From: Nipponacmea schrenckii
Lineage: Eukaryota; Mollusca; Gastropoda; Lottiidae
Assembly: GCA_030562195.1 (NCBI GenBank)
Contig: JAUJPP010000003.1
Location: 31,502,602 to 31,566,601 of the forward strand
Reading direction: 5' to 3'
Length of the DNA: 64,000 bases
Every line of letters starts with the position of its first letter. Position 1 is the stretch's first letter. Under the pieces are notes generated by a model. It was not told the origin of the DNA, did no database searches, and saw only the letters and a program-made list of their open reading frames with translations. This document shows, one piece after another, positions 34,200-61,335 of this stretch. A program made the translations under genes and the position numbers.

Positions 34200-34848
34200 G
34201 TACGTCGAGAGTAGACTGACCGAGATAAGGGCAACCGTAATATACATCCAAACAAGCCGAAATTGATGGGTAATTACTAAGTCAAGGACAGACAGAGGGA
34301 TGGACTGATGTACGGACAGAGGGAAGGACGGGCAGAGGGACGGACGGACAGAGGGAGGGAGGGACGGGCGGACAGACGCACGGACGGACGGACGGAGGGA
34401 TGGACCTAATATACATTCATATTGTTTCTACTATGTCAAGGACAAACGATCAAGGGCAGACCGACAGATGGACAGGGACAACGGTAGTATACACCACATC
34501 CATATTGCTTCTAAGTCAAGGGCAATAACTAATAATCCGTTCATTCGATAATTTCCATACATGCATACCAAGTTTCATTAAAATCGGATAAAAACTTTAG
34601 TACACCCCAAATTTGACGCGTTTTTACTAAGTCAAGGGCAATAACTCAAAAAACATTCATGCGATAATTTTCATTTTCGAACTTAACCGAGATATCATCA
34701 ATATGTACATGTATATCAAGTTTCATTAAGATCGGATAAAAACTGTGGCCTGTATTGCGGATACAACAAATGTGGACGGACGGACGGACGGACAGGGGCG
34801 ACGACAAAAAACGCCGCCTATTTTATGTGGGCGTATAATAAAAATAGA
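34200..34848. mobile_element. TACGCCC-family short element with GACG tracts
   Basis: Begins with GACAGAGGGA/GGACGGAC minisatellite (about 34285-34410), then two degenerate units containing ACCAAGTTTCATTAAAATCG, CTAAGTCAAGGGCAATAACT and ATTTTCATTTTCGAAC. It ends GGACGGACGGACAGGGGCGA, CGCCGCC and TTATGTGGGCGTATA at 34848. Related to the elements at 11.2, 27.0 and 42.35 kb. Confidence 0.65.
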
Positions 34849-39245: not shown

Positions 39246-40443
39246 GAATACAGTTTGAAAATAATATATTCATTCAAAGGGAGAACATAGCTTAAATAAT
39301 GACTTCTTTTGTACTGTCTTTCTTTGTTCGCAGTAGTTTGAATTTCCACCTGTTGCCTCATTGAATTCATTTTGAAGTTGATCTTGTTTATGAACAGTTT
39401 AGTTTCTAGTTTAAGGGGGTTGACAACCTTATCGTTCGAGGTGTATTTCAATCAAGAAACGTATTAAGTTTATATCCATTCTATTTGGCATTAAAAGAAA
39501 CTCATCTAGTAAAATTTTTTAGCTCAATCGCTTCAGTAGTTCGTCTGGTATCCGTCCGTGAAGATAATCTATTTATAGAACAAAACGGGGTATTCCTCTA
39601 TGTAGACGTACAAATTACCTTGTCAGTTGACATTTGTGATTACAACGTCATCGGCTAAATAAACATTCTCTACGTTTGCCAGTCAGTTATTATTAATATC
39701 GTCACGCGAAGTAAGAGTTTGTGTATCGGGGGAATCCAGAAGTCACGTGATGTCCCATAAATCATTACGTCACATGTAAACAAAGAAAATTTTATGATTG
39801 GTGGGTGGAAGGGTTTTGACATGTGCTAATCCATTGTTTTAGCACTCCAATTATGTGGATATCGGTGCATATCGATGCCTAAAAGGTGCTTAAAGATTTC
39901 TACAGCATGAAAGACAATCTTTTAACAACATGATCGTTAATTACGTAAGGTTTACATGTGTTTGCAAAGTGTTGAAAAAAAATGCCATTTTTCCAAAAGC
40001 ATATCTCGCTTACAATTTATCCGATTTTTACAAACTTTGGCTTCAGCTAAAGCTTACGATGTCCTCTATAACTTTACGTTGGCTTTTTTTTAATAAAATG
40101 AATAGTTTTTTAAAAATTCAATTTTTCGTAAATGCACTCGCAAAATTATTATTTCTATCAATATCTTCAAAACATAACAAAATTTTCCAAAAAGCCAACG
40201 TAATTTTGTAGAGATACATGTAGACTTGCGTTGTGCAAAATTTCAACCTTCTATATTAAATAGCCTAGTAGATATGCTAATTTTAAGGGAATAACTGACT
40301 TTTTTTCGTTCATCTTTCACACCCTATTTCTTAAAGTTGAAATGTCATAAAGAAATAAATTTTATATTTTTGGATAGCTGAAAGTCCCCTCTTTCCATTG
40401 ATATTTAAATATTTTAGATAGGTGGAAAAGAAGTGGTTGAAAT
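39246..40443. other. Spacer left of the 10.6-kb transposon
   Basis: Nothing recognisable was seen. AT-rich, with a few short open frames lacking any pattern. Confidence 0.45.
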
Positions 40444-40823
40444 GGTGAGGTCGAAAACACGGACATCGCGGACATCACGGACATCACGGACAAAATATGT
40501 CCGAGTCTTCATATGTCCGTGTTTTCGTCCGGCGTCCGTGTTTTCGTTTTTTCATGTAGGCGAATTTCGAAAACCCGGACATGATGAAATTCGGACATAA
40601 TTTGTCCGCGAAGTCCGGGTTTTCGTTTATTGAATGGGCAGAAATCGAAAACACGGACATAGTTCAAAATTCGGACATTTTTTTTAAGAAAAACTGGCCT
40701 TCTTGAAACTCGTTAAGATGAGTGGTAAATATATAAATTTTACATTGATAGGCATAGTCTAGAATTGGAGAGCGCGTGTGTGAAGTCGTGAGAGTCTTAT
40801 TTCGAAAATGAATTGTGTTTCAC
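40444..40823. repeat. Left terminal inverted repeat (380 bp) of the 10.6-kb transposon
   Basis: Composed of repeated CGAAAACACGGACAT and ATGTCCGTGTTTTCG modules in both orientations, so each arm can itself fold, followed by a non-modular inner part (TTCTTGAAACTCGTTAAGAT, CAATTCTAGACTATG-type on the other strand). It matches the right TIR at high identity by eye. It lacks about 127 bp of modules found in the right copy. Confidence 0.9.
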
Positions 40824-42079
40824 ACCTAGTAGCCTATGGTTATTCCAAAGAGTTAAATATTTGGAAAATTCAGCTAAGCCTCAGATCTCATGCTTAAATT
40901 ATGGCCAAAACTTTTACAAATTCAATACAATCTGAAAAGAAATCTCACTACCAAAATGTTTTATTGAAACTGGGAATAATATACAGTAGGCCTATATTAT
41001 TCCCAGATTGAAACAAATCAAAATCTACATCAACTTAGTATATCTGTAACCTGATCCTGAAATAAGCCTAGAAGTTTGAATGTGAGTACACATACGAATT
41101 GTTTAGTTTACCTATGAGAGCGTGTAACTAAGTGCATCAAACGAACGTGGCCCCTGCCTCGACTTCGATGCTAGTTTAGGCATAGATTATAGACTCCGTA
41201 ATCTATGGTTTAGGGAAACGTCGTGATAAAGAACACAGACATGTCGGTGGGTTTTAAATGTTTCAAATGGGTTTTACGGTAACTTTCAGAAAAGTTAACC
41301 AATAAGGCTTATTGTTGTTTTGTTTTGTTTTTGTGTTTTGTCCATTTAATTCTTTTGTTCGTTAAAAATAACACAGACGGTTCGAACCTCGTGGTGTATA
41401 GCTTGCCTAGCCTCGACCTCGACTCGGCGGAAAACGAACGGTCAGATTATTATTTAGGCCTATAAGACAGACCACGTTGAAACTTATGTCTGTTAAACCC
41501 CGGGTCCAATGTACTGCTAGGCTGTCAAGCATGTCAATAATGGAAAATGAGGTAAATTTGGCCGTCGGGTCATCTGTCCTGTTTTACTTTTGATTAATTC
41601 CGCCGACCTAACGATTTGTTGCCTTTCTGGTTTAAAGAGACTTAAAATAATAATCTCAGATTGTAAACTAGGCCTAATCAGGAAAAACTTTGATGTATAA
41701 ACTTACTCTAACTTTAACACAAATCTATCGAAAGAGCTGGTCAATTCTAAGTAATAAATAGGTCAACACGTGTCTCATAAGGAATGTAAATTGCGGGCCT
41801 AAATAAGAAATATGTCCATTTGCCGATACTTTCAATTAACATAAATAATCAGTAAAATAAAATCATTATCCTGGCAAAGCAATATCAATTTCAGTCACAA
41901 TCGCACTCTTAAACATAGCAATGAAAAACGCTCACACGGCAGCTAAATCTCGATTAAATGCTTAGCTTAACCACTCCAACAATAAAAAGCTTACCTTGTA
42001 AAAACCAATACATAAGCTTCACTAAAATGCTTCACATACTAATAACAATACTACACACCTATCAACAAATGAAAAAATA

Positions 42080-43640
42080 TTAACTTAACTTCCATTGAAG
42101 CAAGGCAGAACATAGACACCATTAAAACTTTTGACTTCCACAAAATCAATTCCCAAATATCCTTCAATTCATTAAGGCTTAAACAGTATATGCCTATAAG
42201 TAAGTGACAAATATCAATTTAAGATCAACAAAAAGAGGACAGAACATAGACACTATCAAAAATTCAGGCTTACACAAAATAAATTCCCCAAATCCATCAA
42301 TGAATCAAGTCTAAAATAGTACGTGCCCATCAATAAGTGAAATTTTTATACGCCCACATTACGATGTGGTCGTATATTGTCGTCGCCCCTGTACGTCCGT
42401 CCGGACGTCCGTCCACAATTTCTTGTGGGTGCTCTAGAGGCAACAATTTTTTTCCGATCTTCTCGAAACTTGGTATGTGTCTTTATCACCATAAGATCTC
42501 AGTTCCTTTCGAAATTCAGCTTCGCAACTTTTACGGTTAGTGAGTTATGCCCCCTGAAATAGCGAAAATTCGTCAAATTTTGCTTGTGGGTGCTCTAGAG
42601 GCAACAATTTTTTTCTGATCTTTATGAAACTTGGTATGTGTCTTTATCAACATAAGGTCTCGTTTCTTTTCGAAATTCAGCTTCGCAACTTTTACGGTTA
42701 GTTAGTTATGCCCCCTGAAATAGAGAAAATTCATAAAATTTTGCTTGTGGGTGCTCTAGATGCAACAATTTTTTTTTTCGATCTTTATGAAACTTGGTAT
42801 ATGTCTTTATCACCATAAGATCTCAGTTCCTTTTGAAATTCAGTTTCGCAACTTTTACGATTGGTGACTTATACTCTCTGAATTAGGAAATAATTTGGCT
42901 TGTAGGTGCTTTAGAGGTTACAATTTTTTTCTGATCTTTACAAAACTTCGTTTGTGTTTTAGTTTTATTTTATACACAAAGTTGGCTTCTGGTGGGCGTA
43001 TAAGCCTTTCGGGCGTCCGCTCGTTTAATTTAAGTTCATAAGGAAAGAGGGCGGAACATAAATACATTTCAAATTCCGGCCAAAACAAAATAAATTCCTA
43101 ATATATCCATCAATGAATCAAGTCTAAAATAATACATGCCTATCAATAAGGGAAATTTTTAATTTAAGTTCAGAAGGAAAGAGGGCAGAACATAAAAACC
43201 ATTTCAAATTCAGGCCTACACAAAATAAATTCCTAAAATATCCATCAATGAATCGAGTCTAAAATAGTATATGCCTATCAGTAAGTGAAAAATATCAATT
43301 TAACATCAACAAAAAGAGAGCAGAGCATAGACACCATCAAAAATTCAGGCTTACATAAAATAAATTCTCAAAATATCTATCAATGAATAAGGTCTAAAAT
43401 ATTACAACTTAGGCCTACCCATCAATAACTGATATTTTTTATTTAAGTTTAACAGAAAGAAGGTATAACATAGACAACATTATAGATCTAGGTCTACGCA
43501 AAATCAATTCCCATAATATCCATCAATAAATCAAGTTTACATGCCAATCAATAATTGAACAATATTAATTCAAGTTCAATTGAAAGAAGGTAAAACATAG
43601 ACAATAAAAGATATAGACCTGCACAAAATAAACTTACCTA
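42080..43640. repeat. Tandem array of about 120-bp units, interrupted
   Basis: Units share CAGAACATAGACACCAT, ACACAAAATAAATTCC, ATCCATCAATGAATCAAGTC, AAAATAGTA and CCTATCAATAAGTGAAA. About two or three units precede and five follow the inserted element at 42350-43010. Units drift at the right end. It lies inside the 10.6-kb transposon, upstream of its gene. Confidence 0.75.
42350..43010. mobile_element. TACGCCC-family short element inserted in the 120-bp array
   Basis: Left end TATACGCCCACATTACG at 42350 and right end GGTGGGCGTATAAG near 43005 are inverted. A TACGTCCGTCC tract lies after the left end. Inside, a 162-bp unit (CTTGTGGGTGCTCTAGA, GAAACTTGGTATGTGTC, ACTTTTACGGTTAGT) is repeated three times, at 42422, 42584 and 42746, with a decayed fourth. 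Confidence 0.75.
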
Positions 43641-44084
43641 TTAAGCAAAATGAACTCTTCCACATATGCATTGAAACTTGAAACTAAGAAACGATAAAAT
43701 CAGCCAGAATTTTTGCGCAAATAAATTAAGAGATCATCACCAAAATTTATACAGATCATCTTTATAATGGTACTAATTAACATACAAAAAATAAAAATTC
43801 ATCTATTGAAAATTGTTGGCTGTGGAGTGAGTAGAACAAACAAATTGTGAAAAAGACAGAAAGGATGATCACAATATACTTCATGTGGACGTATCAAAAT
43901 TAATACTTATAGTCAATTACTCCTTTTTTCATCAAATTTCTAAAGATTTTTTTAATCATTCATAGGCCAATTCTTCACACATTACTTATAATTTTGATCA
44001 AAGGGAACATGTATAGTCTAAATATTTTGTGATATCGATTGATAATTGAAAAACGGATTTATATTTTAGGTATTCAAAATACCA

Positions 44085-47000
44085 CAGATTCCAAAAATAC
44101 CAAAAGTGTCGCCGAAAGTTGCAAAATATGGCATACAGTGCATCAATCCTGTTCAAATCAAATGGAAGACACTAATAGGTTCAGGCAGTTATGGTAAAAT
44201 TTACAATGGTATTTACAACAATTCGCCTGTTGCCTTAAAGTATTTGTCAAATGTTGAGGATGACCAAATATTGAAGGAAGCCGGATTCCTTTCAAAACTG
44301 GAACATCCAAATATTGTTAAGTTTTTTGGGATGTGTCCTGAAGAAAAAACGATTGTGCTGGAATATTTGTGTTTTAGTTTAGTTCCGTTTGGATCAAATT
44401 GAGTTGTAAATAATCTGGAAGAATTACTTGGGGAACTAAATAAATGCAACATGATTGGCTTCGAACATTTAATTCCTATTATTGCCAAACATGTGGTTTC
44501 TGGATTGACATACTTGCATAATGAAGGCGTAGCCCACAGAGACATAAAGCCAGGAAACATTATCGTGTCAAATCAGCACATGACTAACAGAAACATGGAA
44601 TCAGAATGGAAGTTAAACCCAATTACAGCCAAACTTACCGATTTCGGAGAGAGTTGGGGAAAAATTACAACAACTTCATCAATTACACAAACACATACTC
44701 TCAATGCATTTAAAGGAACTATGGCCTTCATGGCACCTGAGGTTATAGAATCTAGAGGTATTGTTCGGCGAACATCCGAAGGTGACATGCAAAAGTCTGA
44801 TGTATGGAGTTTAGGAATGTTATTTTTCTGCCTACTAAATCCTTCTTATAAAGCACCTTATTACAAGGAATACAAAAAGCAGCATTTACCGTGGGAAGAT
44901 TTTATAAAGATGCAAATCTTTGGTCCATCACTCCCAGAAAATTGTGAAACGTATAATTATTTGCATGTAACTGATTGGATTGGAGTGTTTGAAGCTTACA
45001 AAGCATGTTTAAAGAATGATCCAAAAGAAAGAAGTAGTCTTGGCAATTTATGGAATATTCTGGAAGAAACCATTTTGCCACATTTTTACCAATTAAGATG
45101 TCATCAAGGGTCAGTGCTAGAACTATCACAAAAAAAAAGTTTGAATTCCGATACTATATTTGAAATACCTTTAAATGACGGCACAAATGCGTGCACATTT
45201 TTAACATTAAAAATTGCAGAGTTTTTGCTAAACTTGGAATTTACTGCATGGGAAACTTTAGTAAAACCGATTGAATGTATTATAAAATATTTTCCCCAGG
45301 ACATAAATCCAATAAGGGATATTGAAAAACATTACGAAGTAGGAGAGGCGTTGCAAATTCTACATATTAATGGATATTTAAAAGACATTGAAGTGAACTT
45401 TATATGTGAGAGTTGTGATGTTTTCTCTGATGATGGTAAACAAGATTTGTTGAGTGTATTAAAGAATTCTCGCGATGTTTATGCAGTGACTGTTCCACCA
45501 TACACATTTTTGGTTGGTTGGTTACACGACTCCTATATTTGTATTGACACTCATGTCATAGATACGTGTGTTGGAGGGAACAATAACGGAATCATTGTGA
45601 TATTTTCAAATTATGTTCATGCAGCAAGATGGATTTGGAAACGACTTGTTGCCAGTGGTATTCGAAGAGCACCTGTTCAAATGGTAAAGGTAATTATTTC
45701 TGATCCAAAAAGTTATCCCCATTCACCTTTACATCACACAACTTTTGAATATAACACATCCGTTTACCAAACATCCAATGAAGAACCTAAACTTGAATAC
45801 AACAATGCTTCTGAAGACCATAGAACCACTAAACACCCTACAACCACTAAAGACCCCACAATTGTATATCACACACCGATTCACGTCCAGTCGCCTGTAA
45901 AAAACACAATTCAAGATAAAACACTCGTGGACCTACACCACCAAACTATACGAGAACAAATCCCTATATCGACCATTGTAGATCATTCTTCCGTTAACCA
46001 ACACAGTCCTGAATCTTCATCTTTTTACCTTGAGCCTAAAATGGATCCGAAGAAATCTAATAGTTGTAATTTTTGGAATAATAAACCAGTGAAATATTTC
46101 GGACTAAAAAGATTACCTTATATTCCATTCGTCACCAAGAAACTTTCTCACTCTGAGTTGATGGCATTAGTCATGTCCAAAGCGGCAAAATGTGTCGGCG
46201 TACCACAAGGATGTAGAAAAAATTCAGTATTTTTAATTGATAACAGATCTTTAAAGGATCCAACTGATTTAAAAAGTGACTTAAATGGCACTTTTTCTAA
46301 ATCTATTGAGGTAAAAACCATGACAGTGATAGTTTCAGAGATCAGTGGTGTCTTCTCTGTACATGCCAAACACAGATCAAAGGTTGAATTGGATACACCC
46401 CATTTGTATCTCAATGTTCATAGAGTTAAAAATGTACATGGACTGATTAGAAATATATCATATTTCTTTGATAAGGCCGAAGAAATACTTAACAGTGCTA
46501 TCGTTGTTCAATATATTGTTGATCAAGCTGTTGCTGGTGAAGTAGACGAGGTAACGTTTGAAGTTAAATCGCATGGAAATAGAAACGTTTCTGAAAAATC
46601 TACCCCGTTTCATCCAGTTAAAAAAAGCACGATAAGTGCTATAAAAATTGACTCAAGGCTAGGTAAACGCGGATCAAGTTCTATCTATTCAGAATCAATG
46701 TCCAAGACTGATGGTATTAGAGATTTCGGCGATTTTCCACGTTCAAAGAAACAGATAGCAGATATAGCAAACAAGACCCCAGGTCACTCTAAAACAACTG
46801 CTATGGACGAAGTTGAGGCATTGTTAGCTTTTAATCACGAATTAGAGGGCGATCAGGTTATCTGGCACCATAGCGATTTACCGTCCGACCTATGGGTATT
46901 AGGTACACGAAGAATGATCTTTAATTTGAAAGTTTATACCGGCCAACCAATCTCTGTCGATCCCACTTTTAACTATGGAAAATACGAAGTAACACCATTC

Positions 47001-47903
47001 ACATATCGTCATCCACTTATCCAGTCTAAATCCAAGCATACCAGTGAATGGGTTAATGCTGTAATGATAGGACCTACAGTAATTCAGCATTCTAAAGCTG
47101 AGGATGTTTATGACGGAGCTTTTAGAGTGATTGCGCACAAAACTGGACTGAAAGATGCCAAAATTGGAATTTTAACAGATGGGGAACAGGCGTTAATCAA
47201 TGCCCTCAAACCGAATTTCCCCAAAGCCGTTCACATGAGATGCACAAACCACTTTAAAAGTAACTGCAAAGAGTTTCTTTTGCAAAAGGGGATTAGCGGA
47301 TCATCGCAAGAAGTATGTCTAGATATGATATTTGGCGAGAATGGAATTATTGAAGCAGAAAATAAGAAGCAATTGCATACGGAGCTAAAAAATCTGGAAC
47401 AAATTTTACTTGAACTTGGAGAAGAAGGAAGACTTTTTTTCGAATACATAAAAGATAGAGAAAAGTCTGTTCTTAGAAAACTTATACGAGACAACAGACG
47501 GAACGGTGGGATGGAGGAACAGCATGGTATCCCTGTAAGAGTTTACACAAACCAAAGCGAAACCTGCAACTCCATGTTGGCGGCAAAAAAGAAGGCTTTA
47601 GGTTATACCAAAAAGGACGATCTATCAAAAAGCACCTTCATTAAAGAAATATGGTTGGATTTGGTAAAATCACAAGATATAGAACTTGAAAAAGCACTCT
47701 ATGGCCAAAGTGAACGTTTTAGATTAATTCCAGCAGCAAAGTATTTACAGGTAGAAATAGAAGATTGGTATCAGTTAACTGGTACACAGAAGAGAAGGTT
47801 AGTGCATACTAATTTATATGATTTATCCCATAATCCCTTAGTGCCGTTTATTTGGCATAATGGTTTTCTTTCAGACGATTTCTGCGCGGTTATCAGATTA
47901 TGA
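44085..47903 (+). pseudogene. Protein kinase - papain-like protease-like region - MULE transposase (one TGA)
   Basis: The frame opens after an ATATTTTAG acceptor near 44070; codons run to 47903 with a single TGA at 44400-44402. The kinase has IGSGSYGKIY (44175-44204), VALK Lys at 44238, HRDIKPGN (44535-44558), DFG at 44640-44648 and MAPEV near 44730. Residues at 45150-45690 look like a cysteine protease: GTNACTFL (Cys 45192-45194) and CIDTHVI (Asp 45546, His 45552), spaced as in C76/OTU-like enzymes. A Thr/His/Pro-rich linker and a basic region precede the MULE DDE core: SVDPTFNYG (Asp 46959-46961), LTDGEQALI (Asp 47178-47180), NQSETCNSML (Glu 47559-47561). The start exon upstream was not found. 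All domains are collinear on one strand of the transposon. Kinase and protease roles in transposition are unknown. Confidence 0.85.
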
Positions 47904-48868
47904 AACGCTCACCCTTAAAAACTGTTGAGTGTATATTTCCGTCACGTGAGTCCTTCGGTCCATTATTTTGTCCACTACAGCTTTGGTCCCATATTAATGA
48001 ATCCCGATATGTTTCTCGATAAGATGTCGAAAAAGTTCAATTTTCGTGTACGTGCTTTGAAGTTATTGCCTTAAACTCAGCCAAAATACATCAGATTCTC
48101 ATTGATTATATTTACTATTTAAAGTATTCAGTTTTTATTCCATTTTAATATAACTTTTCTTGTCATCCAATAATTTATCCAATAATTTATTATTGATTGT
48201 CAGTGATAGAGTTGGGCTTTAGATTTCGCTGCTGTGTGGGATTATTTCAACGCTTTGAATTGCTATCTTTTCATTACTGTCAAAAGTTGATATTAATTTG
48301 TGGGAGATTAGTACATCGAAGGAAATATGTTAGTATGCTGGTTAGGCTTGGATGATCACTTTCTTATGCCCAATTGTACTCCGTATGAAGTATTGCAGTA
48401 TTGTTCGAAAATCTGGCAGCAGACAGTTGATATCGAGAAAAAAATCTTCTGAAGAACATTTTATGCATTTTTTTAAATGAAGGTTTTTTTTTTAAAGGAA
48501 TACAAAATTGAATTTCCAGACAACATGTAATGTTTCAGTTGAAACATAAGCATTGATAGATTTTTCTTATTTGCAGCATTATAAAATAGAATGAAAAACG
48601 AAATATCTATATTCTAGACAGACCAAAAAGTTACAATAAGAGATAGCTCAAATAACTTATTCAAAGTTTATTCAATTATATTTTAGAGAAAAATGGATGG
48701 ATTTGGAAATTGTTTCAATGATGTTCTTTGTAACTCGTGATTTTCTCTCTGTTATCATATAGATTTTAAAATGTATTCTTTTAACACACATTCATGTATT
48801 TCTCCTTCTTATATCCATAAAAATTAAGTAAAAATACAGTTATTTATTAATTAATATATTTTTTTCAG
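47904..48868. other. Probable intron between transposase and SWIM exons
   Basis: AT-rich, non-coding, ends with a polypyrimidine tract and TTTTTTTCAG at about 48860-48870 immediately before the SWIM exon. The donor was not identified with certainty; GTGAGT near 47945 lies beyond the TGA, and an in-frame GTATCA near 47766 is another candidate. Confidence 0.55.
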
Positions 48869-48869
48869 T

Positions 48870-49775
48870 TATGTAGAAGATTTTAATGCTATGAGTTACA
48901 CAGATATTCAAACCAACAAAGCGATAGTTTTGAAAGAAGATTCATCGGATATGAGTCGCCAAGTAAAAGAAAAACTTTCAGTTAGCCTTCCCCGGTCATT
49001 ACCCTTTGTTCCCCATGCAAGTTTGCTCGAAAAGAAAGCAGAAGACTTGCTTAACTCGCCCAATACGATCTCTATAGCCCCAACACACGACGTAGTAGAT
49101 AATAATAAGATTTCATATCTTGTGGCAGGGAATAATACCACATACTCTGTTACTTTAAGAAATGATACGGTAACTTGTAAATGTAAATCTTTTAGGTATT
49201 TAAATATATGTAGTCATTCTGTCGCTATTGCGGAAAAACATCATGTATTAAGATTACATATTAGTAAGGTTAAAGTTCATAAGAGAAACTCGTTAACATA
49301 TCCCGTTGACCAGCACGGTTCGGGGAGGAAAGGCAACGCCATTAGACAAAAAAGATTTTATAGGCCAACAGGAAGCCCACCAAAGAAAGGTCTTTTCACA
49401 AAGATTTGGCACAATAATGAGCCCTTTCTCATTTTGAAATCTAATACAATTACACCCAACAAATCGCATTGTCAACAATGTAATAATGAGTTTCCCAGAG
49501 GAGCGTTATCTATAATTCTATATGATATCGTATTAAGCCATTCGGAGCGATGGGAGTATTTAAACAGAGATAGAACTAGTTTGGACGATCCAAAATATCT
49601 ACCTTCCCCTGCTGGCAAAATGAGCACAAAGTACTATTGTGTCAGAAAAGAATGCATTTTTCAGAGGTTCCCATATTTTACCCCATCATTAATTCAGCCT
49701 TCTGTTGATTTTGAATTAAGAGAAAGTCATTTTAAATTGTTAAAGGAAGAATTGGATTATAATCCAATAAATTAA
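48870..49775 (+). CDS. SWIM zinc-finger C-terminal exon of the MULE-type transposase
   Basis: Open from the acceptor (YVEDFNAMSYTDI) to a TAA at 49773-49775, about 300 codons. VTCKCKSFRYLNICSHSVAI (near 49171-49230) is a CxC...CxH SWIM finger, the domain that regularly follows MULE cores and binds DNA. A second metal-site-like module follows: SHCQQCNNEF near 49465 and YYCVRKECIF near 49635, C-x2-C and C-x4-C, with the DIVLSHSERWEYLN helix between. It lies on the strand and in the direction of the kinase-MULE gene, so I read it as its last exon; the phase of the junction was not proven. No stop or frameshift is present. Confidence 0.8.
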   Translation, partial: YVEDFNAMSYTDIQTNKAIVLKEDSSDMSRQVKEKLSVSLPRSLPFVPHASLLEKKAEDLLNSPNTISIAPTHDVVDNNKISYLVAGNNTTYSVTLRNDTVTCKCKSFRYLNICSHSVAIAEKHHVLRLHISKVKVHKRNSLTYPVDQHGSGRKGNAIRQKRFYRPTGSPPKKGLFTKIWHNNEPFLILKSNTITPNKSHCQQCNNEFPRGALSIILYDIVLSHSERWEYLNRDRTSLDDPKYLPSPAGKMSTKYYCVRKECIFQRFPYFTPSLIQPSVDFELRESHFKLLKEELDYNPIN

Positions 49776-49996
49776 TATCGATATAATCAATATGTATTTC
49801 GTTTGAAACTATCTTTGTTATTCAGTCTAAATTATGATCATATGTAACAGTAAAAACCTGTGTCAGTTTAACAGTAAAATACCCTATATTAAATATTTTG
49901 GACATAAATTGTGTTTATCTTTCAGTACAGCTCATAATGTTGGCGTATATTGTCCTTATCCCATCCTGTCTTCTCTCAAAACTTGACTAGTTTTCA

Positions 49997-50525
49997 TACC
50001 CCCACATGAAATGTGAGCGTGCTCAGTCGGTCTCTCATGCCGTCCACAAATGGCTTGTTAACACTCTACAGGTCAGAGTTTATTACGGATTTTCAGTATA
50101 CTTGTTTATTACCACCCAAAGTGGAACCCTTTTGTTTTTGGTTCCATTTCTAAAAAAAACTGGAATCCTGGCAATCTCAGAACTAGAACATAAGCGAGTG
50201 AAATGTTGAGTTTTGGATGGATGTTAACGAAACTTTGTATACTTGTTTATAACCACCCAAAGAAGAATCTTTTTGATTTGTGTCCGAAAACAATTCCGAA
50301 AACAATTCCTAGAATTCTGGAACTCTTAAACTTATAATTAAAAAACGAGTCAAATTTAGAGCTAGTTAACACTTTACAGGTCAGATTTTTTTATGGATTT
50401 TCACGGAACTTGGTATACTAGTTTTTTACCACCCAAGGAAGAACCCTATTAATTTTGGAAAAAAATTCTTGGAATTCTGGAACTCAGAATTTGACGTCAA
50501 ATGTTGAGCTTGTTAATATTCTACA
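49997..50525. repeat. Degenerate tandem repeat next to the right TIR
   Basis: Begins TTTTCATACCCCCACATGAA. Units with GTTAACACTCTACAGGTCAG, GGATTTTCA, GTATACTTGTTTATAACCACC and TGGAATCCTGG-type blocks recur at about 50057, 50366 and, cut, 50512. It resembles the TACGCCC-family elements and appears to have inserted beside or been captured by the transposon. Confidence 0.6.
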
Positions 50526-50532
50526 GGTCATA

Positions 50533-51039
50533 GTGAAACACAATTCATTTTCGAAATAAGACGCTCACACCTTCACACACGCGCTCTCCAATTCTAGACT
50601 ATGCCTATCAATGTAAAATTTATATATTTACCACTCATCTTAACGAGTTTCAAGAAGGCCAGTTTTTCTTAAAAAAATGTCCGAATTTTGAACTATGTCC
50701 GTGTTTTCGATTTCTGCCCATTCGATAAACGAAAACCCGGACTTCGCGGACAAATTTTGTCCGAATTTCATCATGTCCGGGTTTTCGAAAATAGCCTACA
50801 TTAAAAAACGAAAACTCGGACGCCGGACAAAATATGTCCGAGTTTTCTTTTGTCCGTGTTTTCGATTTTTGGCTATGGCCAAAACGAAAACCCGGACATA
50901 ACGGACATTTTTTGTCCGTCATGTCCGTGTTTTCGTTTCAAGCATGGGCAAAAATCGAAAACCCGGACATTAGAAAACTCGGACATATTTTGTCCGTGAT
51001 GTCCGTGATGTCCGCGATGTCCGTGTTTTCGACCTCACC
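50533..51039. repeat. Right terminal inverted repeat (507 bp) of the 10.6-kb transposon
   Basis: Inverse of the left TIR with extra GGACAT modules around 50830-50960. The outer end is GATGTCCGTGTTTTCGACCT followed by CACC at 51039. The extra length suggests module gain in this copy or loss in the other. Confidence 0.9.
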
Positions 51040-51042
51040 AAT

Positions 51043-52484
51043 GACTGTGTATATAAGAGTGTGTTTGTAAGATATTGAGTTAGTTACAGTAAAATTATAG
51101 AAGTAAAACAATAGTGTGTTTTTAACCCAATGTGGCAAGTCTGTGTTACAGGAAGTTATCCGCTACAAATATTCTTTTATTAAAAGATATATCTCTGATA
51201 TATAGAGTGTCACTTTCACGAAATTTACGTTTTTCCCGGAAGTGATCAAGTGTTCCCAGTATTTTGATCGATCATGCTGTGTTTGGGATGTGCAATTCGA
51301 ACTAGTATGTTTGCCTACTTAAAAAATCACTAAATGTTTGAAACAACATAGAAGAAAAACTAAACAATGTTGAAGATTAGATTTTGGGGAAGGGAGGGAT
51401 TGATTCTCCCAGATGTATAGGCCAAGGGTATGTCCACCGTAAGCATCTGTATCATATGCAAGGACGGCTACGGACTGATGAAGTCAAACGTTTGATGACG
51501 TTGGGAGGGTGCATTGCCATTCCTGTAGAAGACGTCGTTTCAATTCGCCATAATATTATCGCATAGCCATCATTGCAAAATATTAATCAAGCTAAACTCA
51601 TATTAATCATTCATATTTGACATGATTTTCTAAATATCTCTTTAGATTAGCTTTTGGTAAGGTAATTTTTTCGAATGGGACACAGTAGACATTGTGTTAA
51701 AATTGTGTTAGAATTTCTCTTTCAAACAATGAAACCAATCTATACTGTAAAAGCAAATTTGGTACTAGTTTAACATATTAATTAACTTACCTTTCCATTT
51801 AAACGTTCATCCTATTATGCATTCAGCTAAAATATAATTTGTACTTGAACTATTCCATTATATTTCAGTAGTGAACTTAAGCAGTACTCTTTTAAAGACT
51901 ATCAAATTTTCAGAGCAAGAGTATTCTAAATGGTCCAAGAGCATAATATGGAAGTGGAAAAACATGAAATTGTAAAGTTAAGCTCATAATCTTCTTGAGT
52001 TGAGGAGAAACCAAAATATGATGTTAAAATTGAGACTTGTATTAGTTTCAAAAGAAAATAATAGATGGCCATCACAACAAAACCTAAATTACGCAACTTA
52101 TTTTTTTTTCTCAGCTTAAATTTTAATCAAAACATGATAAATTTTTATTTTCACAAAATATATAGAACATAGAATAAGATTTTTTTTTTTTTGATTTTTT
52201 CTTATCTATTGTTCTGTGGATTTTCAATACGCAAATTATATACTATATCACTTTATTGTAGTTTGATTTTGCTATTATTACTTTAGGAGTTGTTTCCCTT
52301 TAACTGCGATTGAAATAACTGTGAGGTTGTTTTTTTCTGTGTAGGCCCTATGAATAGATAAAAGGTAGTTCGGGGGAGTAGCCTACTGCGGAGTGGATAT
52401 TGGGCTTTCTCTTAAATTGAGAGGTACTCATTGTACCTCCGTGCAATGCTTCGAATTACAGTACTCCGAAGACTTATTATGGAC
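51043..52484. other. Spacer between transposon and LINE
   Basis: AT-rich, with T-runs near 52100 and 52185. A short block near 51385-51420 is an inverted copy of the repeat piece at 13.49 kb. No genes recognised. Confidence 0.45.
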
Positions 52485-52619: not shown

Positions 52620-55600
52620 CACTACACGTCCTGAGAATTACTTGATATAAGAGACACAAATTTCATAATGGTTGGAAATTCATAGTAATATTTTGGTATA
52701 TAGTGCTCTCTTAATGTAGCATATTTCGGGCAAATCAACGCAAAATGATATTCATCATCCACTTCATGTCTTTCACAGTTAAAGCATATTCTTAAGGATC
52801 TAATTAAGTTTTTATATCTCCCAGTTTCAACACCTAGAGTATGCTAAGCACATCTTAATTTGGTAAGGGCTACTCGATATTTTGGTATTGTGACGTATCG
52901 GAGATAATCTTCAAGGCAAAAAGAGTGTTTGAAAAGGTTGTATTTATCCAACTTAGACGAAGATTGTCGAGAGGTATTCCAAGACTGTATATACTGGTCT
53001 TGAATACGGTGACGTATTTTGTTGAGACATGGGACTTGAAAGAACTGAGTATTCCAAATTTCAGAGAAGCCTAAGTTATCAAGTAACTGTTTTACCTGAG
53101 CAGCTCAATTGTGGAACCTAACCCGAGGAGTGATACTGGAGTATAAATCAATGTAAATAAAATATAGGAGACTATTTTGATCTGACAATATATGTATCCA
53201 ATACTTCACAATATTTTGGAGTCTATTGATCCGCAATGGAAAGCGACCCAACTCTCCATAAACTGCGCTTGACACTGTGGATTTTTTAACCTGCAGCAGT
53301 CGTTTGCAGAAACGTAAATGTAAGGCTTCTAAGTCATTTGCATTGATGAAACCCCACGTGGGAGATGCGTAAGATAATATTGACTACACGAAGCAATCAA
53401 AGAGCTTACACTGTTGTCTGCAATCAAGGTTTGCACTATCGAAAACACAATTTAATTGGTGAAGGCCGATATTTCCCTTTTGAACAAGACATTTTTGTAG
53501 TGCATCAAGTTTACCATTGGAGCTGAAAACAACTCCTAGATAATTGAATTTCGAAACACACTCTATAGGGATATCGTTATAAGTAAATTTATATTGATCA
53601 GGATCTTGAGACCCTTTCTGGAATACTACCACCTTTGTTTTACTAACATTGACTGAGAGGTTCCATGTTTTACAGTATTGATGAAGCCGTGACAATTGGT
53701 TTTGTAAACCTCTTTCAGATTTTGATAGCAAGACTGTGTCATCGGCATACATAAATGCTGATAAAACTATATGACCTATTATTATAGGATCAATAGCATG
53801 TTCACTTAGAAAATCACACAGGTCGTTAGCATATAAAATTTAAAAAAAAGGCGAAAGATTGTCGCCTTGTTTTACACCACAGTCTGAAGGGAAGTACTCT
53901 GAGTATGAATCTTTTGATTTGACGCATAGTTGAACATTGCTATACATAGATTTTATACACTTAATTAATTTTTGACTAAGTTCAATTTGGTTTAATTTAA
54001 GAAGAAGTAAGTTCCTATCAACTTTATCAAAAGCCTTGGCAAAATCGATAAAGGCAACATATAATCTTTCGCCATTTGACAGATACTTTGAACTTAGGGC
54101 TTGCAAAATGAAAATACAATCGACGGTGCTCTTATTAGGTTGGAACCCAAATTGAAATACAGACAACTTATTGTTCTCAACTAACCATTCGAACAACCTA
54201 TTATTTACAACAATAGAAAACACATCAAAGTGATACCCCTATAATAATTATTAACATCGCTAGAGTCTCCCTTTTTTGGAACAGGAACAATGACACATTT
54301 TGACCAGCCATCGGGATAAAATCCACTATTGAATATATAGTTAAAGTAAATACAAAGAATCGGACAAAGGATATCGATATTTAACTTAATGATCTCAGGG
54401 ATTATTCCATCGATTCCAGGACTTTTGCCCGTCTTAAGTTTTAGATTGGCTCGGAGTATTTCACGCTCAGAGAAAGGTGCGTCTAAATATTCAACATACT
54501 CGGATAGCGGGATTTGCACTATTTGTTTATTACCACTAGGAGCTTGAAAAAGAAATTTAAAGTGATCAAAGTAAGTCTTCAAATCAGGGATATTTTCGAA
54601 TTGGTAAGTGGACCCACACCTGAGGCCATTTATTCTTTTCCAGAATTGCTTAGGGTTATTCTTAATCAAAGAACTTAAAAAGGTCCCCTGATTGATTTTG
54701 AACTGTTCTTTGGCTTCTCTTCGAACTCTGTTATATTTAGTTCTCGAGTCTATTAGCGTCACTTTTGTGTCGGTTATACAGGTTCCTGTTAAATAAGAAA
54801 GTATTTTTAGCAACTGAACACCTAACGTTGAACCATTCGTTCTGTTTGTTAGGATACTTGCGAGTCTTTGGTTGTTTTTGTGTTGATCCAATAACAATAT
54901 AGCACAAATCAAAGATTATTTGGCAGAAATTGTCATTAAGATCCTCGATATCGATCTGAGAACCGATGGAACCAGTTGCGGGCACGACATTTTCAATTTT
55001 ATCAAGATTGTCAAGTAATATATCGTGTAATGTGGGTTGACTTGCTTGGGTCCATCTTAGGGTTTTCTTAGGCGAAAAGGGCACTTGTGCACTGTGAGAA
55101 TCTTTACAGACATCGAGTCCACCTATGTATCCCTTAAGCTGTAAGCTGGTTGCTGTATGATCAGAAAATTCCGAGAAAGGTTCAATATCAAATTTACTAA
55201 CAACTATCTCGCACTGCTATCTAGGATCACATAATCTATTACGCTTGAACCGTTTGCCGTACAACAAGTATATATACCTGGCTCAAATCTACCATTTAGG
55301 ATGCATGTATTAGTGTTTTTACATAGTTGTAATAATCTACGACCAAATGCGTTAACTACCTTATCTTCACTATGTCTAGGTCCTAAGGGGTTATTATTAA
55401 TAAAGTCATGGCGAGTGAAATGATCATTATAGAAACCTGGCTCGGTTCCAGTTCGGCTGTTTAGATCCCCACATAGAAAGAATACCCCTTTTGACTCATA
55501 TTTTGAGTGTGCGGTTTCAATGTTCTGAAAGAAGTCAACATCGCATATTCTGTAGTATCGGCTGCGCTCGTGGGGAATGTAAGCAATACATAGATATAGA

Positions 55601-55905
55601 TCTGGAAAAGTGACAGGGCTAGCTGATTTCAATCTACACACTATAATACCATGGGATGAGCTTTCAACAACACTAAAATAAGATTTGTAACATAACCGAG
55701 CAAATATCACTATTCCGCCACTATTCTGACAATGTTGCCGGACACATGTATTTATGAAATCCAGATAAAGAACACTTCGTCACATTTTTTCCGGAATGGA
55801 TTAGAATGATTATATCCCATTTTGATATATATTCGCAAAAAGATACTTCTTTGAGCTTAGATGATATCCCGCCATTGATATTCCAAGTAAGGATAGACAA
55901 ATGAT
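52620..55905 (-). pseudogene. LINE ORF2 (APE endonuclease, RT, C-terminal zinc domain)
   Basis: Endonuclease: LTWNINGGISSKLKE near 55880, SGGIVIFARL near 55710, FFLCGDLNSRTGTEPG near 55475 (GDxN), SVIDYVILD near 55230 and, after a stop, FSDHTATSL near 55165. Then a linker and RT: KTGKSPGIDGIIPEIIK near 54430, NNYYRGITLM near 54240, FQFGFQPNKSTVDCIF near 54155, VAFIDFAKAFDKVD near 54055 (catalytic Asp), DCGVKQGDNLSP near 53875, and FMYADDTVLLS near 53745 (YADD). The C-terminal part has VYGELGRFPLRINRL near 53250 and a CFNCERHEVDDEYHFALIC finger near 52780. Breaks lie near 55740, 55204, 54910, 54220, 53840 and 53390. The thumb and tail are otherwise well kept. Confidence 0.85.
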
Positions 55906-55918
55906 CTTCAGCGCAACC

Positions 55919-56950
55919 CTATTCCTGATAAAGTTGGTCATTTACGAAAAGCCTATCATTTATCAATTTTACACGGTTGCCTTTCTGCTTTTCACGTCTT
56001 AAGATTGGCATAATTTCCTTCCATTTCTGCACTACTTCTCTTGGATATTGCTCACTAAGATTCAAACCATAATCTCTTAAACTTAAACCTTCGCGCTTTA
56101 CCTTTTCTCTGTCACAGCGACGTACAAACCTTGCTACAATAGGTCTTGCCGTTTTATCGACCTCTAAGTTGGTGGACCTGAAAGATGTCGCATTGCTGTT
56201 AACTTGTGCCCGACTACGACCCAAGCGGTGCGCTGACTCAATGATAACATCATTTAATTTCAATTTGAGCTGGAGGAGATTTTGAATCAGACCATTACAA
56301 TCTTCATCTGGAAACTCTCTGATATTGTAAAACAGCAGGTTACTTTTCATATCACGACATTTCATGTCTGTCATCTCTTGCTTCAATAATGTATTGTTTC
56401 TTTCTAATTCAGTCATTTTGTTTGTGAAAGTAGAATTTTGAGATTTGATGTATTCAACAGAGTCCGATTGAAATTGAAGAGTGTTTTCGATATGTGACGC
56501 CCTAGTCTCAATATCCTTAATCCTGGTACTGTTGATCGTTACTTCTGCTTTTACTTCTAAGATGTCTTTTTCTATATTCGTTATTTTCGTTTCGATAGTA
56601 TCAAGTTTTTTAAGGCGGTTTGATATATCAATTATTACCTAATCAAGAAGATGGTTAACCATATTAGGCTGAGTTGGGTATTGTGGATTGAGGGTAAGAT
56701 GTGGGTTTCTCATGGTCTGTATTTCGGCTATGTGCGATGATGCAGACGGTGTACTCGTTGCTGGTAATAGCATATTCAGACTAGTATCAAAATTAACATT
56801 ACCATATGATTGCTGTTGTTTGCACGAGGGATCTGTTGGTTTTGGTGTTAGAAAGGCTGATATGCTAGGTTGACTCTGAGATGATGTATTGCTGGAGGAA
56901 TTAGATGATGAGTTCCCAGTGGACTCTCGAGGGCGTTTCGGCTTTCGATT
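55919..56950 (-). pseudogene. LINE ORF1 (coiled coil plus RRM-type L1-ORF1-like protein)
   Basis: An upstream frame (about 56945-56642) is Ser/Asn/Gln-rich (STGNSSSNSSSNTSSQSQ, FLTPKP) and ends in a TAG at about 56641. The frame then continues as a heptad-rich coil (ISNRLKKLDTIETKITNIEK, IENTLQF, NNTLLKQEMTDMKCRDMKSN) and the RNA-binding part NLLFYNIREF, IESAHRLGR, RPIVARFVRR, REKVKREGLSLRD and RVKLINDRLFVNDQLY. Trimeric coil plus RRM plus C-terminal domain is the known L1-type ORF1 plan, acting as an RNA chaperone. The second part alone is a 165-residue open frame (56416-55919). ORF2 starts within about 20 bp of its stop. Confidence 0.75.
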
Positions 56951-58203
56951 TTTGGCATTTCGACAAATTCACTTACAAAAGAGAGAGTATGATTGTCCGA
57001 CACTCTCGGTTTTTCGAAGCTGACTTTGGAGCCAACAAAACAAGTCCAACCACACTAAGAGGAGTTACGATGATTACATTCAATTAAACAAGTTCGACAA
57101 AATGATTTTTCTAGAAATGGTTTTGATTTAACATACAATAATAAAAGTATTTGCTTTATCCTTTATACCACTGTAATCAGTAAAGTTCAATGTCCCTCTA
57201 TAATGGACAGATATTTCAAATATATTGCCGGAAAATACAAAATACTAATACGACAGATGCTGTTGGTTACTTGTTTACCTTTTTGATGACCCTTGAACTA
57301 GGACTTGTTCCATATTTAATACATGGGCAGAGTAGAAAATTTATATTGGGTTTTGAACAAAAACCATAAAGAGTCTCAATGCTCTAATAAAAATTAGAAA
57401 TAAAATTGTAGAGAATTACTTCCCTTTATTTAAAACGTATACAAAGTTATCATTTATAATATATCATACCAGACCTGCTATAGCTACTACAAGGCCTATT
57501 ATAGCTACTACCAAGTCTATTATAGCTACCACCAGTCTACTTTAGCTACTACCAGACCTACTCTATCTACCACCATGCTTACTATAGCTTATGGAAGGGA
57601 ATAGTTGCCATAATTAGATGCAATGAAGAAGTGTCTAATTCCATTGTAATTAGTCAAATGACATGTGTAATAAAACAAAATACCTTAATATCAAAAGACA
57701 TAATGACTGCTTTTGTTAAAGTAAACTGTTTTAAAACAAAAGTTGTATGTTTAACGGCAAGATCAGTCTTGTTTTTGAAGAATATAATATTACTAACTTT
57801 TTACATTAGATGTATGTCACAAACCCCCCTTCATAACACACTGGTTATATGTCGCGTGCAGTTTCTCTTTTAACATTTCACTTTTGTCATATCTATTTTG
57901 TCGTATCTTTTACGTTCATCACATGACCATCACGTGACCAAAAAATAGAAATCATTTAAGAACTGCTCCCAGTGGAATTTATAGTCTTGTTCTTCATGAC
58001 AGACGATAAATGAATTTTCGCCACCAATTCCATGATAATAATAATGATTCTTTATTTGGGTCAACAATTTATTACGCATAACATTTTCGATTTCCCATTT
58101 AAGTTCGCCTATTTAAGCCTTTGCTTAAACTGTCTCTTTGCTAAAGCCCCTTTCCAGGTTAAGAATTGTTTTTCTTTTCTTTATTTTTTCGCATTATCTA
58201 TTT

Positions 58204-58423
58204 CAGTGGTTTTCAACCTTGGGGATGTCGGAAAACTTTTAGGTCACGCGAACAACATATAATCGCAAAAAAAAAAAAAAAAAACTGTTGTGTCTGTGAA
58301 CATGTTATGGTTTGAGATTTAATGCAAGGCCTTTAAAGTCAATATTTGAAATGAAATAGGAGACGCGAACTTTTTCATTAACCAAAAAATGTGGACATTG
58401 CTTGAAAAGGTTGAATTCCACTG
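58204..58423. mobile_element. hAT-type MITE (220 bp) with 8-bp target duplication
   Basis: Ends CAGTGGTTTTCAACCTTGG and AAAAGGTTGAATTCCACTG are imperfect inverted repeats of the hAT kind. ATCTATTT duplicates at 58196-58203 and 58424-58431. A poly-A run of about 20 lies inside. It sits in the left arm of the palindrome only; the right arm holds the uninterrupted site. Confidence 0.85.
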
Positions 58424-58607
58424 ATCTATTTAGACACATCTGATTTTTAGGTCGCGGAGCTTCTAAGACAAGCTGCATCCCACCTCACTTCAAATTCCGA
58501 TGATTTGCCTGTGCCAGAAAACACCCCCCCCCCCCACACACAAAACGCTACTACTACTGGTACTGCTGCCACCAAAAAATCGGCTCCTCTCCATTCCACT
58601 ACTACTA

Positions 58608-58817
58608 TTAGGCCTCGGTACTAGTACTAGCCTTATAAAGAGAAAACAGGCGACACATTTCTTGACGGATAGTATTATTAGTATTATTAGTTGACTCCTT
58701 ATCGGTGGTTTGTGACTGGTTTTCTGACTCAGACAAAACCTCGGAATTTGAAGTGAGGTGGGATGCAGCTTGTTTCAGTAGCTCCACAACCTTGCTTATG
58801 TTGTCTGCTAAGTACAA
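58608..58817 (-). CDS. Unrecognised 69-residue ORF in the palindrome
   Basis: MYLADNISKVVELLKQAASH, then LTSNSEVLSESENQSQTTDK, Ser/Thr/Asn-rich, ending EMCRLFSLYKASTSTEA. The first 20 or so residues have a mirror-image relative in the left arm (VAELLRQAASHLTSNSDDLP near 58452-58510), preceded there by a TTTTTAG acceptor-like site. It looks like an exon of a protein captured by the foldback element. I do not recognise the family. Confidence 0.35.
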   Translation of the reverse strand: MYLADNISKVVELLKQAASHLTSNSEVLSESENQSQTTDKESTNNTNNTIRQEMCRLFSLYKASTSTEA

Positions 58818-61335
58818 GTATCTAAATTAAGGGTCTTGATTATCTCTTGAAGCGGTGAACTATATTTTATTTCCGAATGATGTGTCCAAATAGATAAATG
58901 CCAAAAAAATAAAGAAAAGCAAAAAATATTCTGGGAAGGGGCTTTAGCAGCGAGACAGTTTAAGCAAAGGCTTCAACAATCGAACTTAAATGAGAAATCG
59001 AAAATGTTATGCATAATAAATTGTTGACCAGAATAAAAAATCATTATTATTATCATGGCAATTGGTGTCGAAAATTCATTCACCGTCTGTCATGAAGAAC
59101 AAGACTATAAATTCCACTGGGAGCAGTTCTTAAATGATTTCTATTTTTTGGTCACGTGATGGTCATGTGATGAACGTAAAAGATACGACAAAATAGATAT
59201 GACAAAAGTGAAATGTAATTGGACAAACTGCACGCGACATATAACCAATGTGTTATGAAGGGGGGTTTGTGACATACATCTAATGTAAAATGTATTTAGT
59301 AATATTATATTCTACAAAAACAAGAGTGATCTTACCGTTAAACATAAAACTTTTGTTTTAAAACAATTTACTTTAACAAAAGTTGTCATATGTTTTTTTA
59401 TATTAATGTATCTTGTTTTATCACACATGTCATTTGACGTATTACAATGGAATTAAATACTTCTTCATTGCTTCTAATTATGGCAGCTATTCCCTTCCAT
59501 AATAGCTACTACCAGGTCTACTGTAGCTACTACCAGGCCTACTATAGCTACAACCATGCCTACTATAGATCCACTATGGCTACTACCAGGCCTATACCAT
59601 CTGCCACCATGCCTACTATAGCTACTACCATGCCTTCTAAGGCTACTGCAAGGCCTACTATAGCTACTACCAGATCAACTTTAGCTATAGTCATGCCTAC
59701 TATAACTACTACCAGGCCTACTATAGCTACTATCAGGCCTACTATGGCTACTGCCAGACCTACTATAGCTACTACCAGGCCTACTTTAGCTACTACCAGG
59801 CCTACTTTAGCTACTACCAAGTCTAATATAGCTACTACCAGGCCTACTATAGCTTCTACCATGCCTACTATAGCTTCTACCATGCCTACTATAGCTACTA
59901 CCAGGCCTACTATATCTACTACCATGCCTACTATAGCTACTTCCAGATCCACTATGGCTACCACCAGGACTACTACAGCTACCACCATGCCTACTATAGC
60001 TACAACCAGGCCTACTATAGCTACTACCAGGTCTACTATAGCTACGACCATGCCTTCTATAGCTACTGCAAGGCCTACTATAGCTACTACCAGGTCTACT
60101 ATAGCTACTGCCATGCCTACTATAGCTACTACCAGATCAACTTTAGCTATAGTCATGCCTACTATAACTACTATCAGGCCTACTATGGCTACTGCCAGAC
60201 CTACTATAGCTACTACCAGGCCTACTTCACCTACTACCAGGCCTACTTTAGCTACTACCAAGTCTAATATAGCTACTACCAGGCCTACTATAGCTTCTAC
60301 CATGCCTACTATAGCTTCTACCATGCCTACTATAGCTACTACCAGGCCTACTATATCTACTACCATGCCTACTATAGCTACTTCCAGATCCACTATGGCT
60401 ACCACCAGGGCTACTACAGCTACCACCATGCCTACTATAGCTACAACCAGGCCTACTATAGCTACTACCAGGTCTACTATAGCTACGACCATGCCTTCTA
60501 TAGCTACTGCAAGGCCTACTATAGCTACTACCAGGTCTGCTATAGCTACTGCCATGCCTTCTATAGCTACTGCAAGGCCGACTATATCTACTTCTAGGTC
60601 TACTATAGCTAATATGGTGGTAGATAGAGTAGGTCTGGTATTAGCTAAAGTAGATTGGTGGTAGCTATAATAGACTTGGTAGTAGCTATAATAGGCCTGG
60701 TAGTAGCTATAGCAGGTCTGGTAGTAGCTATAGTAGGTATGGTGATAGCTATAGTAGGTCTGGAAGTAGCTATAGTATGCCTGGTAGAAGCTACAATAGA
60801 CCTGGTAGAAGCTACAGTAGGCCTGGTAGAAGCTACAGTAGGTCTGGTAGTAGCTAAAGTAGACTGGAAGAAGCTAAAGTATACCTGTTGGTAATGGCCT
60901 TGTAGTAGCTATAGTAGATCTGGTATTAGCAATAGTAGTCCTTGTAGTACCTATAGTAAACCTGTTAGTAGCTATAACAGTCCTGGTAGTAGCTAGTGTA
61001 GACCTGTTAGTAGCTATAGTAGGCATGGTAGTAGCTATAGTAGGCCTGGTAGTAGCTATAATAGGCATAGTAGTAGCGATAATGGCATGTTGGTAGCGAT
61101 AATAGGCATGGTGGTAGCTATAGTGGACCTGGTAGTAGCTATAGTAGACCTGGTAGAAGCTATAGTAGGCATTGTAGTAGCTATAGAAGACCTGGTAGTA
61201 GCTAAACTAGGTCTGGTAGTAACTATATCCGGGCTAGAGGTAGATCTCGTGGTAGCTATATTAGGGTAAAAAATAGTTCTGGTAGTAGCTATAGAAGGGC
61301 TAGAACTAGATCCTGTAGTAACTAAATTCTGGAAG

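Follow-up and report, generated by a model that had tools for sequence, protein, structure and literature searches.

DNA transposons are usually pictured as encoding little more than a transposase. Here we describe an element in which a transposase is preceded, in the same exon, by a protein kinase and by a domain resembling the viral-tegument-like deubiquitinases (VTDs). It occupies positions 40444-51039 of a 64,000-nucleotide stretch of the genome of Nipponacmea schrenckii (the window; contig C3:1876266-1940265 of a 399-Mb assembly). Its transposase places it in the MULE superfamily, whose members typically have terminal inverted repeats (TIRs) of more than 100 bp and target site duplications (TSDs) of 8-10 bp (PMC5225508; this paper, PMC9741609, PMC2836005 and PMC13317346 are cited throughout for the parts of their text that we consulted). 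The window element (TIRs of 380 and 507 bp) and a cousin on contig C5 of the same assembly (about 400 bp) both exceed that length, and the likeness to MULEs such as MuDR and Muta1 extends to a 10-bp TSD (in the C5 cousin), a DDE triad in a MULE domain and a SWIM-type finger. What the window element adds is the N-terminal kinase and VTD; the word kinase is absent from the MULE surveys PMC13359780 and PMC6446971.

Ubiquitin- and SUMO-type cysteine proteases (OTU, Ulp1 and VTD) are already known in transposons. VTD-bearing Helitrons and Helentrons (Erven et al., 2022; PMC9741609) share with the window element a transposon-encoded VTD with Cys and Asp-x-His, but theirs belong to rolling-circle RepHel proteins whereas the window element has a DDE transposase; for the Helitron VTDs a role in guarding the transposition proteins from degradation was proposed. 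The main text of PMC9741609 contains none of the words kinase, MULE and Mutator; that paper mentions, without details, cnidarian genes in which VTDs are fused to transposon-associated domains, and part of the present finding may have been glimpsed there. MULE and Ginger elements with OTU or Ulp1 (including the plant Kaonashi/KIU elements) likewise carry a ubiquitin/SUMO-type cysteine protease, although the protease families differ (PMC2836005; PMC13317346); a protective role was proposed more loosely for the Ulp1/OTU domains of Ginger and Mutator elements (PMC2836005), and the word kinase is absent from both papers, as far as their consulted text goes. The herpesvirus large tegument deubiquitinase (UL36/M48) resembles the middle domain of the window protein in predicted fold and active-site order, but is a capsid-attached virus protein with which the identity is 6-14%. 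No kinase-bearing or VTD-bearing MULE was found in the open-licence PMC literature, a search that left Repbase and most subscription papers outside.

We consider it somewhat probable that the window element is a decayed copy from an old animal lineage of long-TIR MULEs with a kinase and a VTD built in ahead of the DDE transposase, working as outlined in the last section. We favour this reading because the catalytic residues of kinase, VTD and DDE domains are jointly conserved in relatives, and because the C5 element, with both TIRs and a TSD, holds a kinase, a VTD-like frame and a MULE-SWIM region in the same order.

The gene of the window element and its domains

A preliminary description of the window had recognised a unit of about 10.6 kb between inverted repeats of 380 and 507 bp, with kinase motifs, a Cys/Asp-x-His region and a DDE triad in one plus-strand frame, followed by a SWIM exon. 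The layout that emerged is given below in window positions.

40444-40823, plus strand: left TIR, 380 bp, beginning GGTGAGGTCGAAAAC (from the arm alignment; end also fixed by a remnant copy)
44070-47797, plus strand: kinase-VTD-MULE exon, with an in-frame stop at 44400-44402 and GTA as codon 1 (donor read from sequence)
44157-45074, plus strand: protein kinase domain, K 44238, HRD D 44541, DFG D 44640 (Pfam and alignment)
44400-44402, plus strand: in-frame TGA inside the kinase, which breaks this copy
45090-45713, plus strand: VTD domain, Cys 45192, Asp 45546, His 45552 (predicted fold and alignment)
45714-46109, plus strand: variable linker (mean identity 16.5% over 21 pairs of relatives)
46110-47796, plus strand: MULE transposase with its N-terminal region, DDE 46959, 47178, 47559 (Pfam, alignment, fold comparison)
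47798-48868, plus strand: intron, GT...AG, phase 2 (splice sites read from sequence)
48869-49775, plus strand: SWIM zinc-finger exon (weak in Pfam; aligned to P0001)
50533-51039, minus strand: right TIR, 507 bp, of which about 127 bases are extra TIR-like sequence (arm alignment)
51040-51049, plus strand: AATGACTGTG, probable 10-bp TSD (partner 183 kb away, next to a 160-bp remnant of a left end)

The domain line-up of the preliminary description therefore stands, with all three DDE residues exactly where it had put them, but the continuity of the frame does not: the TGA splits the kinase, and the stretch 44085-49775 is not one open frame because the intron separates MULE and SWIM. Relatives P0002, P0005, P0006 and P0007 end where the window MULE exon ends (donor 47798).

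A VTD-bearing Helitron would have Rep (HUH) and helicase domains in the same protein; Pfam, run on three frames of the window element, returned kinase and transposase families together with SWIM. The kinase is matched on either side of the stop (PF07714, E 5.7e-12, on 44070-44402; PF00069, E 1.6e-23, on the frame from 44403), and the two frames are one reading frame split by the TGA, in whose place relatives have sense codons. Though the TGA lies inside it, the domain conforms to PF00069 and has the catalytic K, E, HRD-D, N, DFG-D and APE-E; it is a putative protein kinase of Ser/Thr type. Codon 1 (44070) is GTA where seven of eight kinase-bearing relatives have Met, and the start codon of the window gene may come from an upstream exon. 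The MULE domain (PF10551, E 2.3e-6) is above its cut-off and its fold is closest to that of ISCth4. The SWIM match (PF04434, E 0.0041) falls below cut-off, but over 300 positions the exon shares 42% identity with the SWIM region of the Holothuria protein P0001, whose own SWIM match has E 5.3e-7.

The middle domain was described at first simply as protease-like, and that description can be made more precise. VTDs rank first in both comparisons of the domain with the Protein Data Bank (PDB), the structural alignments to herpesvirus tegument proteins being those with the low identities given above, and the sequence has a catalytic Cys followed by Asp-x-His, an order that the consulted text of PMC9741609 treats as the VTD hallmark. 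By its predicted structure it looks like a papain-like fold closest to VTDs, and thus a putative deubiquitinase. A PDB profile search with the full-length alignment (A2) gave only kinases among the best 60 of 2758 matches; it is uninformative on the VTD because that alignment keeps full-length rows. The domain could instead be papain-like without being a deubiquitinase (of YopT/AvrPphB kind, for example, or a pseudo-enzyme), which the rank of the VTDs and the Asp-x-His order make rather improbable.

Relatives and conservation of the architecture

A protein search with the VTD-MULE part gave 28 homologues (P0001-P0028), eight of them with a full kinase (P0001-P0003, P0005-P0008 and P0010), and the fusion of kinase and protease with a MULE in one polypeptide, for which the preliminary description could name no parallel, is thereby borne out. 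Ten relatives have both VTD and MULE, and the two of these that are not among the eight have predicted proteins that begin within the upstream domains: P0004 at what aligns, by eye, with the C-lobe of the kinase, and P0009 inside the VTD. When the window sequence is aligned with 13 of the 28 (14 rows), K, E, D, N, D and E of the kinase are kept in all nine kinase-carrying rows, the VTD Cys in 9/9, Asp-x-His in 10/10 and the DDE triad in 14/14. Mean identity over the 21 pairs of seven diverged rows (P0005 and P0007 being left out as near-duplicates of P0002) is 45.6% for the kinase, 37.2% for the VTD, 41.6% for the MULE N-terminal region and 54.0% for the MULE catalytic region; the linker between VTD and MULE, aligned with many gaps but usable as a rough internal control for loss of constraint, is at 16.5%. 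In a maximum-likelihood tree built on the MULE part (29 rows), the kinase carriers group with P0004, P0009 and P0011 at 100/100, and P0012-P0023 are the sister of this clade.

We are confident that the kinase-VTD-MULE architecture is a real, selected feature of a lineage. It might have been supposed that one copy had captured a host kinase and protease by accident, in Pack-MULE fashion, to make a functionless fusion, since capture of host gene fragments is known for MULEs (PMC5225508) and the window copy is broken; but relatives only about 40% identical have the same architecture, their catalytic residues were kept while the linker diverged, and the same order recurs in a second element family, that of C5. 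With the architecture so conserved we reject accidental fusion, to which we give very little credence. (As an aside, at least one gene model that bears the name of a host kinase, 'TAO1' of the sea cucumber Holothuria leucospilota, reads as a transposase.)

A search with the kinase-VTD part yielded 439 proteins, the best 120 of which were listed, from 7,987 scored candidates sharing most words. At least 68 (P0029-P0096) have E <= 2.1e-54; after a gap comes P0097 (2e-34), and beyond it follow other kinases (>=1e-29). Alignment of the window, six fused relatives and P0029-P0097 (76 rows) shows the HRD Asp in every row. Six key columns of kinase and VTD are spanned by 35 rows, 28 of them from P0029-P0097; all six residues are kept in 31 of these rows, but not in P0058, P0067, P0074 and P0082. 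The other rows span the kinase but only part or none of the VTD. Among named hosts, the pair is complete in Apostichopus (P0029) and Holothuria (P0042, as well as P0001), only the start of the VTD is present in Clytia (P0067) and Lineus (P0074), and only the kinase is seen in Lytechinus (P0060), Meganyctiphanes (P0079) and Mytilus (P0081). The kinase P0090 and the seemingly kinase-less MULE protein P0023 are probably on one contig, because the longest contig is of 375,503 bases for both.

Three further proteins may be mentioned here. P0097 (813 aa) has a kinase, a VTD-like region and a DEAD helicase, and is thus the kinase-VTD pair in another architecture. In P0134 (621 aa) a USP-type (PF00443) deubiquitinase domain comes after a protein kinase, a similar pairing that is perhaps unrelated. 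P0067, from Clytia hemisphaerica, has at its N-terminus part of a DNA ligase (PF01068, just under cut-off), then a kinase, the start of a VTD-like region and repeats.

Element ends and cousin elements in the same genome

The repeat search called the TIR arms of the window element at 40443-40823 and 50533-51040. Aligned end to end they have 366/379 paired bases identical, and they differ in length because the right arm is 127 bases longer. Both are rich in repeats of the same short units; GGGTGTCTATAAAACGAAGACCC is an element-end sequence in this genome. No TSD lies directly at both ends of the window copy, the left flank ending GTGGTTGAAAT and the right flank starting AATGACTGTG. The latter sequence is found again in inverted orientation at C3:2110219, where it adjoins a 160-bp remnant of a left end close to a 500-N gap (C3:2109556-2110220 takes in the gap and the remnant, whose flank is the reverse complement of the right flank of the window element). 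Because the partner 10-mer adjoins a TIR remnant 183 kb away and near that gap, these seem, from their sequences, to belong to a single insertion with a 10-bp TSD, whose ends were parted by inversion or by a scaffolding error. Apart from the window element, the assembly yielded no full-length copy of this kind, as might be expected if the element were an immobile, domesticated host gene derived from a MULE; but it is flanked by TIRs, the end remnant and probable TSD point to insertion, and the frame is broken, so that domestication, too, is unlikely, and we think it scarcely credible.

Contig C3 (59,252,672 bases) is exactly 2 x 29,626,336, three stretches compared between its halves are 100% identical, and the contig is apparently a single sequence entered twice, so that any count made on C3 is to be halved. 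Accordingly the window place appears twice among the 29 rows returned by a genome search with the window MULE part. The best other place, C5:25487173 (37% identity), is closer to P0012 and P0018 of the sister group than to P0010. Its element begins at 25476806 with GGGTGTCTA and ends at 25490413 with ...GACACCC (13,608 bp), and contains, all on the same strand:

25479826-25481013: kinase frame (family profile E 1.4e-115)
25485531-25486247: VTD-like frame of 239 codons, GSQCST...FDSHACN...DPNGAA
25486952-25489590: MULE-SWIM region

The TIRs, of about 400 bp, have 390/395 paired bases identical with 9 gap columns, in an alignment that omits some 30 bases at the left terminus, and a 10-bp TSD, GTAGACTCCC, flanks both ends. 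As kinase, VTD-like frame and MULE-SWIM region all lie between TIRs that are flanked by the TSD, they are parts of one element; the kinase and VTD-like frames are free of internal stops. The terminal 23-mer of the element, with up to two mismatches, occurs 194+220 times in the assembly (somewhat too high a count, because C3 is doubled), and its reversed control 0 times. A cousin copy on contig C13 has 97-100% DNA identity to that on C5 in the pieces outside the TIR repeats, the VTD and MULE parts being common to both. A third cousin, at C5:11917984, is broken, and the check for a kinase there spans about 1.4 kb upstream.

The kinase family is found at six places in the genome at E <= 1e-15 (seven rows, the window being doubled). 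Measured on the fitting strand, the distance from element end to kinase is 3.0 kb for the C5 element, 1.6 kb at C12:444924, 4.4 kb at C8:23877914 (where the kinase is a 57-aa fragment with a stop) and 3.6 kb in the window. At C12:964431 a TIR repeat array lies 1.1 kb upstream of the kinase, and at C14:3206019 there is no TIR end within 1.5 kb of it. Three of the five kinase places outside the window are thus 1.6-4.4 kb inside a C5-type end; a simple model gives a chance of about 2e-7 for three of five within 5 kb, which is only a rough figure because the 5-kb limit was set afterwards and because a cluster of ends on contig C12 breaks the independence that the model assumes. That cluster has four C5-type ends within 100 kb (C12:390879-488098), those at 390901, 411123 and 488076 having the same flank and that at 446560, near a kinase, another, perhaps by local duplication.

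As to the rest of the window, a segment inside the element and upstream of the kinase (42343-42638) is 68% identical, inverted, to about 34564-34841, and is perhaps a short nested transposon. Outside the element (1-38000 and 53000-64000), translations inspected by eye included several reverse-transcriptase-like frames and pogo-like, Tc1-like and BEL/Pao-like ones, and at 59438-60873 a long frame of simple repeats. Inspection by eye, without a family search, recognised no host gene there. The introns and the LINE-, Tc1- and BEL-like frames of the window are in keeping with animal DNA. Scans of the window with Rfam (at gathering thresholds) and for tRNAs were both empty.

Possible roles of the signalling domains in transposition

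Several observations weigh against an old lineage of kinase- and VTD-bearing MULEs of which the window element is a decayed copy. The window copy is broken, with its in-frame TGA and no ATG. P0011 belongs to the kinase-carrying clade in the MULE tree and has no kinase, nor was a kinase found in the predicted proteins P0012-P0028. In the C5 element the MULE is in two overlapping frames, with a probable frameshift near 25487165 (the C13 copy has one frame through the matching stretch). The VTD-like frame of the same element has no Pfam match; among PDB sequences it comes nearest to the Helitron VTD 8add, at a weak E of 0.0056, and hhalign of the window VTD family against it, with a single sequence on one side, lent no support (probability 0.5). 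The VTDs of the window and C5 elements may be of different subfamilies, or the C5 call may be wrong. The preliminary description had held that copies with the same TIRs and no kinase would betray an accidental fusion: for the window TIRs only the 160-bp end remnant was found. Of the cousin with other TIRs, the C5 element has the kinase, but in the partial C13 copy none was seen over the 6.3 kb that precede the start of its homology with C5 (at C5:25484652). The left end of that copy was not found, and it may be truncated or have lost its kinase. The neglect of clustered ends, and the limit chosen after the event, belong in the same balance.

If the window element nevertheless represents such a lineage, how might its parts work together? 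The MULE/SWIM part would bind the repeat-rich TIRs, whose repeats are likely transposase binding sites, and would cut and join the element. The deubiquitinase would shield the transposase, or its partners in the assembly, from being removed by way of ubiquitin. The tethered kinase would phosphorylate either the transposase or host proteins close by that serve repair, chromatin or silencing, and cutting would thereby take place when the cell could tolerate or repair the cuts. We see about an even chance that at least one of the kinase and VTD acts in or on the transposition complex. Slightly below that, and tentatively, we would place the wider proposal that the kinase-deubiquitinase pair is a basic and ancient control unit of a branch of animal MULEs, coupling transposition to phosphorylation and ubiquitin signalling, and fused in one lineage but encoded by separate exons or genes in its sister.

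The pair is also met without a MULE in frame, and in the helicase fusion P0097, which would make it a travelling signalling module. Kinase and VTD might instead be anti-defence or host-signalling cargo, acting in trans on immunity, germ-line silencing or the cell cycle and taking no part in transposition. At least 20 kinase-VTD proteins (P0032-P0051) have no MULE in the same frame, the C5 element has its kinase and VTD-like region as separate exons or genes, and host genes derived from VTDs are, according to the consulted part of PMC9741609, active in expression in the male germ line, and the suspicion is that they overcome what limits the inheritance of transposons. In the window clade, however, kinase and VTD are fused to the transposase in one exon, which would tether both to the transposition complex, and to judge from such gene structures we regard the cargo idea as possible but unlikely.

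The window element adds one more kind of transposon to those holding tegument-type deubiquitinases, which, on one hypothesis, reached herpesviruses via transposons (PMC9741609). An intact-looking kinase and a putative deubiquitinase kept beside the DDE domain, at about 40% identity between relatives, suggest that control of transposition through phosphorylation and ubiquitin may matter to the parasite. The same idea has been put forward for the Ulp1, OTU and VTD domains of other transposons, and becomes testable with catalytic-dead versions. The element would seem to bring along equipment of its own with which to manage the signalling of its host.

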